Source of the DNA: an uncultured Myxococcales bacterium
GTDB taxonomy: Bacteria; Myxococcota_A; UBA9042; CAIXZC01
Length of the DNA stretch: 32,342 nucleotides
Direction: 5' to 3'
Assembly (NCBI GenBank): GCA_903923815.1
Contig: CAIXZC010000234.1
Coordinates: forward strand, 1-32,342
In this document: one piece after another, positions 10,139-20,730 of the stretch
How positions within the stretch are numbered: the first letter of the stretch is position 1
How the letters are laid out: every line of letters starts with the position of its first letter
The notes under the pieces: generated by a model
The model's database searches: none
Seen by the model: the letters and a program-made list of their open reading frames with translations, nothing else
Told to the model about the DNA's origin: nothing
Made by a program: the position numbers and the translations under genes

Positions 10139-10168
10139 TTGCCTACTTGCCTCCCCCGGGACTATACT
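10139..10168 (+). promoter_or_regulatory. Putative sigma70 promoter for the carD-like gene
   Basis: TTGCCT (10139-10144), 18 bp, TATACT (10163-10168). Confidence 0.4.
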
Positions 10169-10204
10169 CGCGACCTGTTCAAGGCTTGCGGAGATTTCCT
10201 TCCC

Positions 10205-10723
10205 ATGTCTGAGGGTCAGTTCAAAATCGGTGATTTGGCGGTCTACCCTGCCCAGGGTGTGGCCGAAATCGTCGGCATCGAAAGCCGGAAAATCGGCCCC
10301 CTGACGGAGATCTTCTATACCCTGCGCATCACCGACACCGAGAAGAAGATCATGATCCCGGTGAAGAAGGTGGACTCGGTGGGTCTGCGCCCCCTGGTCA
10401 GCAAGGAAGAGGTCGAGGCCCTCATGGACCTGGTGCGCACCCCCTTCCAGCGCCAGGAACCTCAAGAGACCTGGAACCGCCGCTACCGCCGCTACCTGGA
10501 GAAGATCAAAAGCGGCCAGGCCGTGGAGGTCGCCGAGGTCTACCGCGACCTGTGCCACATCAAGCGCGACAAGGATCTTTCCTTTGGCGAGCGCAAGATG
10601 CTGGAGATGGCCCGCACCCTCCTGGTCAAGGAATTCAGCATCGCCCTTGGCGACAACGAAGAAGCCGTGGAGAAGGCCCTGGAAGGCGCCTCCCTTTGCG
10701 GTGAGCCAGCCCCCCAGGCCTGA
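10205..10723 (+). CDS. CarD/CdnL-family transcriptional regulator
   Basis: 172 aa from ATG 10205: FKIGDLAVYPAQGVAEIVGIESRKIG....YTLRITDTEKKIMIPVKKVDSVGLRPLVS and a helical C-terminal domain are typical of CdnL/CarD RNAP-interacting proteins. Confidence 0.9.
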   Translation: MSEGQFKIGDLAVYPAQGVAEIVGIESRKIGPLTEIFYTLRITDTEKKIMIPVKKVDSVGLRPLVSKEEVEALMDLVRTPFQRQEPQETWNRRYRRYLEKIKSGQAVEVAEVYRDLCHIKRDKDLSFGERKMLEMARTLLVKEFSIALGDNEEAVEKALEGASLCGEPAPQA

Positions 10724-10726
10724 CCC

Positions 10727-11170
10727 GTGCGGGCCGTCGTTCAGCGCGTCAGCGCAGCCTCAGTGACAGTGGCAGGGGAAGTGGTGGGCAGCATCGGCCC
10801 GGGTCTGCTGGTCTATGCCGCCGTGGGTCCCCAGGATGGCCCCGCCGACCTGACCTGGATGGCCAGGAAGCTGGCGGGCCTGCGTATCTTCGAGGACGCC
10901 GCCGGCAAGATGAACCTGGACCTGTCCCAGGTGGGCGGCCAACTGCTGCTGGTGTCCCAGTTCACCCTCTTCGCTGACGCCCGCAAGGGCAACCGCCCGG
11001 CCTTCAACCAGGTCATGGAGCCCCAGGCTGCCCAGCAACTGCTGGAAGACCTGGTGGGCATGCTGGGGGCCGCGGGGGTGCCCGTCCAGACCGGCCGCTT
11101 CGCCGCCCACATGCAAGTCGCCTCCACCAACGACGGCCCCGTCACGATTCTGTTGGATTCAAAGCAGTGA
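10727..11170 (+). CDS. dtd: D-aminoacyl-tRNA deacylase
   Basis: 147 aa, GTG start: MRAVVQRVSAASVTV, LLVSQFTLFADARKGNRPAF, NDGPVTILLDS (Gly-cisPro motif). Confidence 0.95.
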   Translation: MRAVVQRVSAASVTVAGEVVGSIGPGLLVYAAVGPQDGPADLTWMARKLAGLRIFEDAAGKMNLDLSQVGGQLLLVSQFTLFADARKGNRPAFNQVMEPQAAQQLLEDLVGMLGAAGVPVQTGRFAAHMQVASTNDGPVTILLDSKQ

Positions 11171-11227
11171 AATCTTCCCCCAGCGCTACGCGCCACCTTC
11201 CCCCGGGGGGGGGAAGGGACCAGAGGT
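11167..11227. repeat. Partial copy (right arm only) of the dispersed GC-rich repeat
   Basis: cttcccccagcgctacgcgccaccttccccc...gggggaagggaccagaggtg matches the right arm of copies A and B (e.g. 195-227). Confidence 0.75.
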
Positions 11228-11330
11228 GGGGTGATTCGTTAGTTGCTAGCTGATCGCCCCTGTCCATGGCAGCCAGCGCCGCGGTAGCGGCGCGCTGCTG
11301 CCGGTCCATTGTCTTGGCGCGCCCCATCCC

Positions 11331-11397
11331 GTCCATGATGTCCATGATGTCCATCCTGGCGGCCTGTCCGTCGTCCATGATGTCCATCGTCCATGGC
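11331..11397. repeat. Short TCCATGATG-type minirepeat cluster
   Basis: gtccatgatgtccatgatgtccatc (11331-11355) and gtccatgatgtccatcgtccatgg (11373-11396). Confidence 0.8.
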
Positions 11398-11515
11398 GCG
11401 CCTGCTCCAGCGGTAGCGTGGGTCGGTTGTGCAAGCAGTCGGGCGCTGGGCACGCGTTCCCCAATGCCGGCGGTGGCCCCGACACCCCCATCCGGCGCGG
11501 AACCTCCGACCTCGT

Positions 11516-11678
11516 GCAAGCGCCTGCGTTCTTCCCCTCCCCCGCTGGGGGAGGGGAGTGAGGGGTGAGGGCTGTCGCACGCTGAAGAGGCGTTGGGAAC
11601 GGGGGGCACGGCGCAGCAGGGGCAACTACGCCCCTCATCCGGCGCTACGCGCCACCTTCCCCCAGGTGGGGGAAGGAA
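11516..11678. repeat. GC-rich dispersed palindromic (MITE/REP-like) repeat, copy B
   Basis: cttcccctcccccgctgggggaggggagtgaggggtgagggctgtcgcacgctgaagaggcgttgggaac ... cccctcatccggcgctacgcgccaccttcccccaggtgggggaagg; same order and orientation as copy A. Confidence 0.8.
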
Positions 11679-11695
11679 ATTTGGAATGGGATGTC

Positions 11696-14600
11696 TTAGG
11701 GCAGCTTGGGGCAGGTGTCGGGCTTCTCGCCTTCGGCCTTGTTGGCGTTGGCGAACTGGCAGTCCAGGAAGGCGCGCAGGGCGGCGGGCTCACGGCAGTC
11801 GGCCCGCTTGTTGCGCAGGCCCTCGTCCATGAAGGTGTAGGTCTTGGGGAAGCTGATGCGCACTTCGTCCACCAGGGGCGACCAGCGGGCCTCGGTGAAG
11901 TTGTAGTGGGAGCGGATGTCCATGTTCCCGGACTCGCCGAACTTCTTCCACATGGTGGCCATGTCATCGATGAAGGCCTGGCCCTCCTCGCGGATGGGGT
12001 CAGCGGCCACTTCGATGATCTTGGACTCCTCGTACTGCTCCAGGTTGTTCATCAGCAGCGCGTAGCGGTCGTTCTGCTTGAGGCTGGCGTCCAGGGCGCG
12101 CTCCACCATGGTGGGCTCCAGCAACCAGGCCGCGGCGGCCTTGCTGCGCTTGAACTTGCGCTCGGTGGCGGCCTTGCGGACGGCCCAGGCAGCCAGGTGC
12201 TCCTTCTCGGCCTCCAGCATGGTGCGGTCCATGATGGCCCACTCCTTGAAGGCGGGGGTCACGTCGGTGTCGCGGTCGATCTCGGGCTCCAGCCAGGCCA
12301 GGTCGGACAGGTACTTGAAGCGGGCACCGTCCAGGGACTTGGCGATCAGCAGGGTCTTGTTGCGGTCCAGACGGCCAATCTCACGCTCGAAGCGGGAGGG
12401 GTTGTCGAAGAGGCGGATCAGCCAGAAATACTTGAGGGGCAGGTCCTTGTTGACCATGTCCGACAGCATGTCCTCGTAGGAGGGGGCGGCGGGGTTGCCG
12501 GCGTTGGCGGCGGCGTACTCGGCTTCCGTCAGGAAGAAGGGCGCCACGCGCTTCTCCAGCAGCTTCATGCCCGCTTCCAGCCTGGGCTTGGCCAGGAAGT
12601 ACTGGAAGGCCAGGAACTTGTGGTACTCGCGCTGGTCGCCTTCCTGGGCGGGCTCGGCACCTTCCTTGACCTCGGGCAGCTTGCCCATCTCGTCGATGAG
12701 GGTCTTGGCCTTGGCGGGGTTGGTCGCCAGCAGCAGGCCGATGTAGAGATCCCGGTCACCCGCTTCGCCGGCGGCCAGCAGGGCGCCGTACTTGGCATCG
12801 AAGGCGACCTTGTTGGTGCGCAGCAGCTCCTTGGCCTCGGTCAGCTCCTTGAGCATCTTGCGGTACTTGGGATAGGTCACGCGGAAGTCCGCCGCGGCGG
12901 CCTCGTTGTCCTTCTGCATCTTGTTGTAGTAAGCCATCATCTCCTGGAAGCGCTTGCGGTCAGCCTCGAAGCGGACGGCGTCGTGCTCCTTGGCGAAGAA
13001 CAGGCAGGCCTGGACATCCAGTTCCCAGAGGCGGGTGTACATGGCGTCGAAGGCGGGCTTGCCAATCCACCAGGCCAGCTCCAGGGCGGTCTTGAGGCCA
13101 CGGGCGGGATCGGAGTAGAAGTTGCCCTTGCGAGCCTCCTCCTGGTGGTTGGCCAGGCGGGCCTTCACGAAGCGATCCATGTAGACCTGGAACTGCTCGG
13201 GCTCGAACAGGTACAGCTTGATCAGGAACTCGATGTGACGGCCGTTGGCCTCGGAGGTCAGCAGCATGTCGTCGTAGGCGGGGGTGGCAGACTCGCCGTA
13301 CTCGGCGCGGCTCTTGAAGTAGGACTCCAGGCCGGCCTTGTCGGCGGCCAGCACCTGGGCGTTGGCCACGGGGTCCAGGAAATCAGCAACCAGGGCCTGG
13401 TAGGCCTCGGGGCTGACGGCGCGGATGGCCTCCACCGCGGAGATGCAGGTGGGGTCGGTGACCTTCACGAAGCCGGGCTCCTTGGCGCGGGCCTGCAGGG
13501 GCATCCACTTGTCCAGGCACTTGATGCCAGCGTCCAGGATGGGGCGGGCGGCCAGCTCGGCTGCCAGCTCGGGGTGGTTCCTGCTGCCCGGATCCATCAG
13601 GCCCAGCACGCCGTAGTAGGCGTCCAGATCTTCGGCCTTGAGGACCGCAAGGTTGGCCTCTTCGCAGGTGTTCTTCTGGGTGCAGAACCAGAAGATCTCG
13701 CCCCGGCCGTCCACGACCGTGGCCATCTTCTTGACCTTGCGCAGGGTGCCCACCTGGGAGACGACCTTCTCGTACTGGATCTTCTTGGCCTTGAGGGCGG
13801 CCTCAGTGGCCTCCCTGGCCTTGGCCTTCTCCTCGAGGGCGCCATTGGCGGCGGCCAGGACCTTCTCACGCTGACCGGCGAAGAGCTGATCTTCCCAGGT
13901 GCGGTCCCAGCAGCGGATGCCCTTGCTGGCCTTCTGGAACTTCTCCAGCACGGGGACCCAGTCACGCAGCAGGCTGAAGTCCTTGGGGAACAGGATCACG
14001 TAGCGGCCCGAGCCCAGGCTCTTCCAGTTCTCTTCGGTGTAGGACACCACGGAGGGCAGGTAGTCGTCGGCCTCGAAGACGAAGCTGTAATCATAGATGA
14101 ACACGGGGACCTTGGTGGGGTCCATGAGCGTGTCGGCGCCGGGGCACTTCTGGACCATACCGGAGATGGCGGGGTAGTACTTGCTGTCATCGGGGCAGAA
14201 GTCCACCATGCGCAGGGTGTGGCGGTAGCAATCGCAGGCATCCTTGCAGGTGCTGGGCACGCCGTCGCAGAACTTCTCGTTGCTGAAGACCTTGGGGTCA
14301 TTGAAGTACTGGTTGCAGTCGCTGCCAAGGGCGGGCTTGGGCTCCTCGGGCTTGTCCTTGGGTTCGGCCTTGGCCTCGCCCTCGGCACCCTCTTCACCTT
14401 CGGCGCCCTCTTCGGCCACGTCTTCCTTCACGACGGTGGCCGCCAGGCACTTCTCGTAGCCCGGGCAGACGACCCGACTGGCGGGGTAGAACTGGCCGTC
14501 AGGGATGCACATCTTGCCGCGCTCCCGGATGGGCAGGTTCTCGATGTTGAGGTCGGGCAGTTCTTCATCGGCACGCAGGTGGAGGCTGTCGTTGTCGATG

Positions 14601-15115
14601 GAGATGGGATCGCCGAAGGGCCGGGCCTCCTTGGCCTCGATGGTGTCCAGCACCCGGGCCTTCTGGATGATGGAGACCTTGGCGGTGGCAGGGTAGTACT
14701 GCAGCCTGATGGCGCCGGTCTTCTCCTGCAGCAGGGCCACCTGCTCGTCGTACTGACGGGTGAGGTCAGCCGCCCGCTGGCGATCCATCTGGGTCAGGTC
14801 CCCACGGATGAAGGACGCCACGCGCCAACTGGCCAGGGGGTCCACGATGACGTAGGTCACCATGGCCATGGTCAGCAGCAGAGAGGCGAGGAAGACCACC
14901 AGGCCGATCCTCTTCTTCTTGCCACCATCCATGGCATCTTCCATGGCGTGGAGTTTCTCACCTGCGTCGCTGTTCGCGTCGGCACCGTTGTCGGTAACGA
15001 GGCTGGCGAAGTCCTTGCCAAGGATTTCCTCGAGGGTATCCCCGGAAACCGGTTTGGAGGGACGCTTCTCGCTGCTGTTCAGGTCGCCACGCTTGTCGTC
15101 ACGGCTTCTGCTCAT
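11696..15115 (-). CDS. Large single-pass membrane-anchored periplasmic protein, uncharacterised
   Basis: 1139 aa from ATG 15115 (ORF extends to 15154). Basic cytoplasmic N-terminus, one TM (GGKKKRIGLVVFLASLLLTMAMVTYVIV), E/A/P/K linker, Cys-rich segment, long helical C-terminal region. Confidence 0.85.
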   Translation of the reverse strand: MSRSRDDKRGDLNSSEKRPSKPVSGDTLEEILGKDFASLVTDNGADANSDAGEKLHAMEDAMDGGKKKRIGLVVFLASLLLTMAMVTYVIVDPLASWRVASFIRGDLTQMDRQRAADLTRQYDEQVALLQEKTGAIRLQYYPATAKVSIIQKARVLDTIEAKEARPFGDPISIDNDSLHLRADEELPDLNIENLPIRERGKMCIPDGQFYPASRVVCPGYEKCLAATVVKEDVAEEGAEGEEGAEGEAKAEPKDKPEEPKPALGSDCNQYFNDPKVFSNEKFCDGVPSTCKDACDCYRHTLRMVDFCPDDSKYYPAISGMVQKCPGADTLMDPTKVPVFIYDYSFVFEADDYLPSVVSYTEENWKSLGSGRYVILFPKDFSLLRDWVPVLEKFQKASKGIRCWDRTWEDQLFAGQREKVLAAANGALEEKAKAREATEAALKAKKIQYEKVVSQVGTLRKVKKMATVVDGRGEIFWFCTQKNTCEEANLAVLKAEDLDAYYGVLGLMDPGSRNHPELAAELAARPILDAGIKCLDKWMPLQARAKEPGFVKVTDPTCISAVEAIRAVSPEAYQALVADFLDPVANAQVLAADKAGLESYFKSRAEYGESATPAYDDMLLTSEANGRHIEFLIKLYLFEPEQFQVYMDRFVKARLANHQEEARKGNFYSDPARGLKTALELAWWIGKPAFDAMYTRLWELDVQACLFFAKEHDAVRFEADRKRFQEMMAYYNKMQKDNEAAAADFRVTYPKYRKMLKELTEAKELLRTNKVAFDAKYGALLAAGEAGDRDLYIGLLLATNPAKAKTLIDEMGKLPEVKEGAEPAQEGDQREYHKFLAFQYFLAKPRLEAGMKLLEKRVAPFFLTEAEYAAANAGNPAAPSYEDMLSDMVNKDLPLKYFWLIRLFDNPSRFEREIGRLDRNKTLLIAKSLDGARFKYLSDLAWLEPEIDRDTDVTPAFKEWAIMDRTMLEAEKEHLAAWAVRKAATERKFKRSKAAAAWLLEPTMVERALDASLKQNDRYALLMNNLEQYEESKIIEVAADPIREEGQAFIDDMATMWKKFGESGNMDIRSHYNFTEARWSPLVDEVRISFPKTYTFMDEGLRNKRADCREPAALRAFLDCQFANANKAEGEKPDTCPKLP

Positions 15116-15172: not shown

Positions 15173-15201
15173 ATTTAAGCCGTATGCCCCTGCAAAGTCA
15201 A
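15173..15201 (-). promoter_or_regulatory. Putative sigma70 promoter for the 1139-aa protein
   Basis: Minus strand TTGACT (15201-15196), 17 bp, TTAAAT (15178-15173). Confidence 0.5.
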
Positions 15202-17730: not shown

Positions 17731-18522
17731 CTACTCGGCCAGGTAGATGCACAGGCGACGCTCGCGGCCCTCGCCCTCGCTCTTGCTGGCGACCTTGCTG
17801 TTCTTGGACACTTCCATGTGGACCAGCCGGCGCTCCCTCGGGTTCAGCCGATCCAGCCACATCTCGCGGCCACTCTCCTCGACCTTGCGGATCCAGCGAC
17901 GGGCCTTCTCCAGCAACTCCAGGTCCTTCTCGCTCAGGGCGCTCATACCGTCGATGGTGATCTTCCACCGGGGGGGGAAGCGGTTCACCACCTTGTTCAC
18001 CACGAACTGGAAGGACTCCACGAACTCGGGGTCCTGCTGGAAACGGTCGGCCAACTCGCCGGTGGCGCAGATTTCAATGGAATTGCGACCCTCGCGGATG
18101 ACCAGCTCGGCGGGGTCCAGGTCCAGACGCTCCAAGAGGCCCGCGCAGAACTCCTTGGACTTGGCCATCCTGCGGGCGAACTCCTCGGGGGTGCGCTCCT
18201 CGTCGTCCTCCTGGCTGTCGCCGTACTCCTCCCGGGGAGCACGCTCCTCCCGGGGGGCACGCTCTTCCCGGTGGGGCCGTGCGCTGCGGGTGGGCGCCGG
18301 GGCGGGCAGCTCCTCCATGGCTTCGGAGAACTCGGCGGGGCTGTCGTACAGGCCGTCCACCACCACCTCCACCACCACGCTGGGCTTCACCACAGCCAGG
18401 ATGCCCTTGCTGCGGGAGACCACCTCGAACTTCAGCTCCGCCCTGGGGATCCCAAGGGCGCGCTCGGCCCGCTCCAGGGCCTCCTCTTCCGTCTTGCCGT
18501 TGAAACGCCGTTTCTCTTCCAT
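17731..18522 (-). CDS. jag: Jag/KhpB RNA-binding protein (Jag_N, KH, R3H)
   Basis: 263 aa; FNGKTEEEALERAERALGIPRAELKFEVVSRSKGILAV (Jag_N), RNSIEICATG (KH), LNPRERRLVHMEVSKNSKVASKSEGEGRERRLCIYL (R3H); adjacent to yidC. Confidence 0.93.
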   Translation of the reverse strand: MEEKRRFNGKTEEEALERAERALGIPRAELKFEVVSRSKGILAVVKPSVVVEVVVDGLYDSPAEFSEAMEELPAPAPTRSARPHREERAPREERAPREEYGDSQEDDEERTPEEFARRMAKSKEFCAGLLERLDLDPAELVIREGRNSIEICATGELADRFQQDPEFVESFQFVVNKVVNRFPPRWKITIDGMSALSEKDLELLEKARRWIRKVEESGREMWLDRLNPRERRLVHMEVSKNSKVASKSEGEGRERRLCIYLAE

Positions 18523-18532
18523 GGAAAACCTC

Positions 18533-20440
18533 CTATGCGGCGCGGGTTGTGCCGCCGGTAGTGAATCTTCTCTTCAGGTAGTACTGCTGGGCGATGGACA
18601 GCAGGGTGTTCACCAGGATGTACAGGTTCAGGCCCGAGGGCAGGAACAGCATGAAGACGGTGAACATGACGGGCATCATGTACAGCATCATCTTGGCCTG
18701 CTGGGAGTCCATGGTGGTGGGCGTCATCTTCTGCTGCACGTACATCAGGCCACCCAGCACCAGGGGCATGACGAAGAAGGGGTCGGGGGCGGAGAGGTCG
18801 TGGATCCACAGGCCCATGGGGGCCCGGTAGAGGTCCACGGCGGAGTAGAGGGTCCGGTAGAGGGCGATCCAGATGGGCATCTGCAGCAGCATGGGCAGGC
18901 AGCCCCCCAGGGGGTTGACCTTCTCCCGCTTGTAGAGGTTCATGACCTCCTGGTTCATGCGCTCCCGGTCCTTGCCGTACTTCTCGCGAAGGCGATCCAT
19001 CTCGGGCTTGAGCTCGGTCATGCGCTGCATGCTCAGGAAGCTCTTCTGGGTCAGGGGCAGCATGATCAGCTTGACCAGGATGGTCAGGAAGATGATGGCC
19101 AGGGCCCAGGAGGGGATGTAGTCGTGGAACCAGCGCATGATGTACAGCATGGGCTTGGACAGCACCGCCAGGATGCCGAAGTCCAAGGACTCCTCCAGGG
19201 TGGGGGCGGCGTCCTTCAGCAGACCGATGGTCTTGGGGCCCACGAACAGCATGTTCTCCCAGGAGAGGCGGTTGGAGGAGCGGATGTGGGAGGCCGCGGC
19301 ATCCGACAGACCCGCGTCCCGCAGCTCCTTCTCTTTCTGGACAAAGGCCTTCTCCAGGGCCGCCCGGTCCCACAGACCCTCGGCATCCAGGCCCAGCACC
19401 TTGGCCAATTCATCACAGGACACCCCGGGGCGCCCCTTCAGCCAGGAGGGGTTGCAGGACTGGCCCGAGGACAGGGTCACGGCGGGGCGGTAGGCGCTGG
19501 CGCTAAGCACGCCGTTGCCGCCGGCCTGAAGCTGGCAGGAGGACTCCTCGGCGCTGCGGTTCACGGCGGCCAGCAGGAAGTAACGATCGGAGACGCCCAC
19601 CCACTCGGTGGCCCCGCCGGGGTTCTTGACGCCCCCCTCCTTGAGGAGGGCCTCGGCGGGCTCGGTGTTGAAGGAACCGCCGGCCTGGCACTGGGCCCCC
19701 TTGATGTTGGCGGGGGGGGAGAAGATGGAGGTGCCGGCGGTGGTGCCCGGGGTCTCCCAGGACGTGACCGTCAGCCGGGGCTGGATCTGCAGGGCCTTGG
19801 CGCCCAGGTTGTACACCGTCACCAGCAGGCGGAAGCGGTGCCCCCCAAGGGGCTTGAGGCGCCGCTCCACGTAGACGTCCGAGGTGTCCGTGGCGGGGTT
19901 GGGCCACACGTAGACGGCCTCGGCATCGCCGGGGGCGCTGACCAGCGAGAAGATGGGGTCCGCGCGGTACAGATCAAAGAAGTCCGCGGTGACCTTGGCC
20001 CCCGCCTTCCAACCCTTGGGGTCGGCCAGGGAGGCCACGGGCTGCACCAGGGTCCGGGTCAGCTGCACGCCCGCCAGGACCTCGGGCTGGGAGAGCTGGA
20101 ACTGGAAGGGCAGGAAGCGGGTATCCCAGGTGTTCACCAGCTGCATGGGGCCCGGCCGGGAGATCCACTGGGGCACCACGCCCACGGAGCCCTTAAGCTC
20201 CTCTTGCTGATATTGATCGTAGAGGAGTTCGAAGCAGGCCAGGGTGCCACCCCGGCCGCTGAACACGGCGCGGTACTTCTCGTTGGCCTCCTGGGAGACC
20301 AGCTCCACCGCCCCGGGCTCACCGTCGCCGCAGCGAACGACGGGCCCCTCAGCACCGTGGGCGGGCGCGCCGGCCAGGAGCCCCGAAGCAAGCAGGACAA
20401 GACACACCAGGCTGCGAAGGGAGTGGGTCTTCAATGGCAA
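18533..20440 (-). CDS. yidC: Membrane protein insertase YidC
   Basis: 635 aa; P1 domain ([14 protein letters not shown]), conserved TM core ([51 protein letters not shown]). TTG start. Confidence 0.95.
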
Positions 20441-20730
20441 CCTCTGGGCACAGCCCGGGAACTCCGAGGGGGGACCAGATCGACCCCGCCCTCATTCCAA
20501 GGATGGCACCTGGAAACGCGCCGCACAGCCAACCAAAGACCGCGGGCGGGGCCGTGGACCTGGAGGGCTTCGATGGCGTAGTTGGAACAGCTTGGATGGA
20601 AACGACAGGCGGGGGGCAGCAGGGGGGACACCACAGTCCTATAGAAGCGCAGAGGCAGCAGCAGCAGGAACAACAGCACAGCGCTGGCCCTGTTATTGCC
20701 TTTCCATTCTTCTGTAGAGCTTGAAGGCAT
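20431..20730 (-). CDS. yidD: Membrane protein insertion efficiency factor YidD
   Basis: 99 aa; [59 protein letters not shown]. Confidence 0.94.

Follow-up and report, generated by a model that had tools for sequence, protein, structure and literature searches.

The window, by which we mean the whole stretch of DNA that was analysed (32,342 nucleotides), contains on its reverse strand a complete coding sequence for a protein of 1139 amino acids, referred to below as the giant. The reading frame is a real gene and not a chance ORF, because its GC content at codon positions 1, 2 and 3 is 0.63, 0.40 and 0.91, respectively (GC3 0.91), a good Shine-Dalgarno sequence, AAGGAAGAG, lies in front of the ATG at 15115, and full-length homologues with 37–39 % identity occur in three other genomes, all from family f1. 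The 1249-aa ORF that runs antisense to it was rejected as a gene in its own right and is a shadow of the target gene. The original prediction had given the gene its own promoter; a TTGACT-17-TTAAAT element is indeed present at 15201-15173, but a promoter scan does not report it and the promoter is unproven.

The region between 1887 and 11170 is occupied by pilB-pilT-pilC-pilS-pilR-pilin, after which come a gene of the CarD family (10139-10723) and then dtd (10727-11170). The window also has two types of intergenic G+C-rich repeat, each ~50 bp long, one at 183-231, 11180-11228 and 11639-11687, the other at 90-143 and 11546-11599; those copies located at 11180-11687 fall in the gap that separates dtd from the target gene's 3' end. 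A second large ORF (17747-20581, 944 aa) has no match in Pfam or NCBIfam. The features of the target gene and of the protein it encodes are the following.

11696..15115, (-) strand: complete CDS, 1139 aa plus stop; ORF of 1139 codons, homologues in other genomes
15173..15201, (-) strand: promoter-like TTGACT-N17-TTAAAT, unproven; read from the sequence, 9 of 12 consensus positions
14909..15115, (-) strand: predicted cytoplasmic N-terminal tail, residues 1-69; alignment of representative members
14840..14908, (-) strand: single transmembrane helix, residues 70-92; hydropathy, and a helix in the low-confidence model
14714..14839, (-) strand: juxtamembrane helix with FIRGDL (residues 102-107), residues 93-134; alignments
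14507..14713, (-) strand: beta domain, first half (AIRLQYYPATAKVSI ... LPDLNIENLPIRERG), residues 135-203; short-form homology, profile comparison of the parts after the transmembrane helix
14111..14506, (-) strand: insert 1, Cys-rich module and variable acidic linker, residues ~204-335; absent from short forms, Cys conservation
13886..14110, (-) strand: beta domain, second half, with the W..LGSG..Y element and Cys402, residues 336-410; short-form profile match
11936..13885, (-) strand: insert 2, helical domain, residues ~411-1060; present in only 4 genomes, duplication test, no Pfam or PDB match
11780..11935, (-) strand: retained short-form C-terminal tail with Cys1107, residues ~1061-1112; profile match

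Topology and cysteines of the giant

The ORF, the hydropathy profile and the homologues all bear out the predicted 1139-aa protein with one transmembrane helix. The best hydropathy window begins at residue 73 and all other regions stay at or below 1.0, while the KKKR sequence that precedes the helix suggests an N-in/C-out orientation. The tail in front of it contains a short hydrophobic motif, DFASLVTD, which aligns with DVKAFL, DVHELLL and EIAGIF of relatives, and G105 and G134 of the juxtamembrane helix are among the few residues that are nearly invariant family-wide. Of the features described in the original prediction, the acidic linker is present, and so is a C-terminal part that is mostly helical. 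In contrast, the short beta-like repeats turn out not to be repeats but the first strands of a single beta domain, the second half of which follows at ~336-405.

The AlphaFold model of the full-length giant, built on an alignment of four sequences, has a pLDDT of 41 and is too weak for use. For the beta part of a homologue (also four sequences in the alignment) the pLDDT is 58; in this model strands flank the Cys module on both sides, and a PDB fold search with it gave no significant match.

Twelve cysteines (203, 217, 223, 296, 307, 324, 402, 478, 484, 533, 557 and 704) are invariant in all four giants, i.e., the target protein and its three full-length homologues. Cys1107 is kept in three of the four, one giant being without an equivalent. 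An even set of conserved cysteines located after a transmembrane helix that is N-terminally flanked by basic residues suggests that the invariant residues form disulfides in the periplasm, and the view of the giant as a single-TM periplasmic protein fits both this pattern and the topology. The Cys-rich motif quoted in the original prediction is conserved only in part: C217, C223, C296, C307 and C324 of insert 1, together with C203 at the edge of the module, form a conserved set, whereas the three relatives have nothing equivalent to C267, C283, C290 or C294.

Relation to a family of short bitopic proteins

Searches of Pfam, NCBIfam and PDB sequences with the 1139-aa protein gave no significant match, only chance-level ones, and queries of Pfam or PDB by family members or profiles fared no better. 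A strong full-length match to a characterised family, the finding that was to speak against the original prediction, is thus missing from these three collections. That the protein has no recognised family nevertheless holds only for curated databases, since profile comparisons assign it to a family that is nearly universal in its class. The direct search with the giant yielded three weak matches, with E values from 1.5e-4 to 4e-4; the proteins concerned are ~340-377 aa long and come from other families of the class. With a profile built from these three short proteins, 51 of the 52 class genomes give a match. Where a class genome has two matches, they are close together on one contig and were read as pieces of one ORF.

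Family profiles were run within the phylum (379 genomes). Beyond the class, more distant forms exist in other classes of the phylum: the broader short-form profile reaches f19 and f48, f19 being taken to be Bradymonadaceae, including Bradymonas sediminis. In the genome taken to be Bradymonas the homologue is located at ~4,429,777-4,431,303 of the single contig. A profile of f19/f48 extends the range in turn to families such as f28, f30, f41 and f42, although its weakest matches are unsafe. Viral contigs gave no match. An apparent fusion protein of 2387 aa (L047) was discarded as an ORF extension with an Arg/Pro-rich, out-of-frame-like composition, its true start being internal.

The short forms, 340-560 aa in length, consist of a cytoplasmic tail with a short hydrophobic motif, a transmembrane helix, the FxGxL helix, a beta domain and a helical tail bounded by cysteines. 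With the giant they have in common (e.g., L006, L007 and the Bradymonas form L113) the tail motif, the transmembrane helix, the FxGxL helix and the YGxLxLxYxPxxAxVxI beta domain, to which the short forms within the class add the Cys pair and a GFxTxEEF helical tail. They differ from the giant in having neither the six-Cys insert nor the 650-aa helical insert. Some branches carry additions of their own: unlike the giant, the f5 branch has an extra cytoplasmic zinc ribbon, while in the Bradymonadaceae branch there are two PEGA-like domains and, to judge from the alignments, the Cys-bounded tail is missing. The zinc ribbon at the cytoplasmic N-terminus of f5 proteins is seen as a Pfam match in L065 (L065:9769-11367) and as a motif in the f5 consensus.

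All the elements that define the family can be located in the giant. The transmembrane helix is preceded by basic residues and by the tail motif [VI]xx[LIV][LF], of which FASLV in the target is a loose match. FIRGDL and GAIRLQYYPATAKVSI correspond to the FxGxL helix and to the YG-x-L-x-L-x-Y-x-P-x-x-A-x-V-x-I beta segment, and the second beta half is equally present, including W..G.G..Y and the first of the two invariant cysteines. The C-terminal helical tail up to the second invariant cysteine is the weakest of the four, one relative being without this cysteine. Cys402 and Cys1107 of the giant align with the two invariant cysteines of 14 short forms.

Profile-profile comparison of the four giants with the 14 short forms gave 99.7 % (E 3.5e-25), column-shuffled and reversed controls remaining at or below 0.3 %, and the parts after the transmembrane helix were sufficient for 98.4 % (E 5.6e-15). 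Taken individually, the second beta half (336-410) matches the short form at 91.7 % (E 7.8e-7; control segments ≤2.1 %, shuffles ≤2.5 %) and the C-terminal tail (~1061-1112) at 54.9 % (E 1.2e-4; other insert segments ≤1.2 %, shuffles ≤1.3 %). The short-form blocks are found in the giant in their original order: residues 1-~203, then 336-410, then ~1061-1112. Both the three-block architecture with its family placement and the view of the giant as an enlarged version of a bitopic membrane protein whose family is undescribed and mostly single-gene are well supported by these sequence comparisons. The giant illustrates how a protein can triple in size through insertion while its ends are retained, and offers a clear cut site for experiments.

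The two inserts and the PEGA likeness of the beta domain

Insert 1 (~203-335) is a six-cysteine module placed within the beta domain and has no counterpart in the short forms. Insert 2 is an all-helical stretch of ~650 aa inside the terminal helical part. At convincing scores it occurs in four of the 379 phylum genomes, all belonging to f1, and neither relatives outside these four genera in the 379 genomes nor a Pfam or PDB match could be detected. Among the four genera it is conserved at 35-36 %, with many invariant polar and aromatic residues. A gapped comparison of its residues ~484-733 with ~775-955 gave 25.7 % (E 7e-4) and a score of 31, whereas none of 60 shuffles scored above 21.9; the ungapped internal-repeat test of the giant did not rise above shuffles. 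Insert 2 may be an old internal duplication with two diverged copies, a reading for which the gapped score is only suggestive.

The beta domain shares its general beta pattern with the PEGA domain (PF08308), and this resemblance is solely transitive. The f19/f48 (Bradymonadaceae-type) domain matches a bona fide PEGA set in profile comparison at 70.9 % (E 3.8e-5; shuffles ≤0.2 %), and two Bradymonadaceae-type relatives score 15.1 and 14.5 bits with the Pfam PEGA model, below its gathering score of 20.8 bits. The parts after the transmembrane helix of class forms and f19/f48 forms are in turn linked at 97.5 % (E 5.2e-12). Directly, PEGA gave no Pfam match in the giant and profile-profile values of only 0.1 % for the window family and 0.8 % for the short forms. 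The beta domain of the giant can therefore be called distantly PEGA-like in this transitive sense only.

Gene neighbourhood and possible functions

No neighbour is common to all family members among the loci examined, and neighbours differ by lineage. The dtd gene adjoins or is near the target gene in the window and the homologues of f2, f4, f6 and f9, a synteny that speaks for the giant's place in the family; several f6 members come after a Clp-like AAA+ ATPase gene. In 13 f5 loci (L064-L070, L074-L077, L079 and L080) the next gene after the homologue, on the same strand and at a distance of -85 to 302 bp, encodes a Slt-type lytic transglycosylase, and many f5 loci also have mutL and miaA downstream. 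A FAA-hydrolase gene adjoins the homologue in f19, f28, f30 and f48 (L113-L116, L118, L122, L123, L125, L157-L159, L162, L163, L165 and L169), an old neighbourhood without obvious functional link, and gyrB is a further neighbour in Bradymonadaceae.

Genes of the ExbB/TolQ family lie less than 4 kb from the homologue in f8, f9 and f30 (L061, L072 and L154-L156) and nowhere else among the loci examined; ExbD genes accompany them in L061 and L154-L156. An association with ExbB/ExbD motors was considered and rejected, as among the loci fetched these genes are near the homologue in just two class genomes, and genomes contain 2-11 ExbB genes each.

The retention of a mostly single-gene membrane protein by 51 of 52 class genomes probably points to a basic role in the envelopes of these bacteria. 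The family is covered by none of the curated libraries searched, even though it can also be detected in other families of the phylum, among them that of the cultured predator Bradymonas sediminis.

As to function, we give an even chance to the giant acting in the cell envelope as a tether or scaffold without enzymatic activity, anchored in the inner membrane, whose insert extends its periplasmic reach. This is the most economical explanation because we are dealing with a near class-universal bitopic protein that has a conserved tail motif and a periplasmic module and is devoid of any recognisable enzyme domain; searches of Pfam, NCBIfam and PDB with the giant, and of Pfam or PDB with its relatives, matched no enzyme family. 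The N-terminus would be cytoplasmic and everything after residue 92 periplasmic and disulfide-braced. The tail motif would dock a partner in the cytoplasm, the beta domain would be the conserved module for binding in the periplasm, and the arm added by the helical insert would provide either a longer reach across the periplasm or extra sites for partners. The original description of a scaffold rather than an enzyme appears to agree with the topology, with the invariant cysteines and with the missing enzyme match, although the last of these would also be compatible with a new enzyme within the helical insert. Counting against the tether or scaffold reading are the neighbours that change from lineage to lineage and thus indicate no role, the weak AlphaFold models with their empty fold search, and the one giant without a Cys1107 equivalent.

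Three other explanations have to be weighed. It is unlikely, although the best of the three, that the family works in peptidoglycan turnover or division, as an FtsN-like bitopic activator or as an anchor by which a lytic transglycosylase is recruited or held back. The Slt-type gene after the homologue in the 13 f5 loci would agree with such a role, as would the FtsN-like combination of bitopic topology and cytoplasmic docking motif. However, the adjacency to Slt is seen in no other family examined, the two genes being 3.4 kb apart and on opposite strands in f2, and a SPOR domain was reported neither for the giant nor for its relatives.

It is somewhat less likely still that the helical insert has an activity of its own, as a new enzyme or binding domain, so that the giant would differ functionally from the short form. 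The conservation of its ~650 residues among four genera, without detectable relatives elsewhere, and its numerous invariant polar and aromatic residues speak for such a domain, but no catalytic-type motif was recognised by eye, and the weak internal duplication and the helical content rather suggest a repeat-like or solenoid architecture.

The least probable role is that of a type IV pilus accessory (alignment or assembly factor): the target gene lies 3' of pilB-pilT-pilC-pilS-pilR-pilA, ~2 kb from the last gene of the set, and pilT-like genes are located upstream of the short form in two f6 genomes, but this linkage, and with it the connection to motility via the pil operon, is not conserved in the loci of relatives, the three closest of which have no pil genes within the stretches examined (~1 to 10 kb on each side of the gene), pil genes being absent from most loci examined, the scanned PilR-like neighbour in f30 being an FHA-NtrC regulator and not PilR, and Pfam scans of the giant and its relatives having reported no FimV, LysM or TsaP-type domain.

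The tether or scaffold reading can be given a more specific form, which we put forward tentatively and consider possible rather than probable. A class-universal, as yet unnamed myxococcotal envelope tether would in one family have acquired the six-Cys module and the ~650-aa, internally duplicated helical domain, which together would make a disulfide-braced arm leading from the inner membrane towards the peptidoglycan or the outer membrane.

Among the known systems close to the giant are, by working principle, envelope adaptors of the FtsN and FimV type. They are bitopic, possess either a short docking segment in the cytoplasm or a helical part of large size, and play a structural and not an enzymatic role; they differ by their SPOR or LysM domains, neither of which was reported in the giant or its relatives. 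In FimV, the large acidic part is on the other side of the membrane than in the giant. FtsN is bitopic with a cytoplasmic docking motif, and it is in this working principle that it resembles the family.
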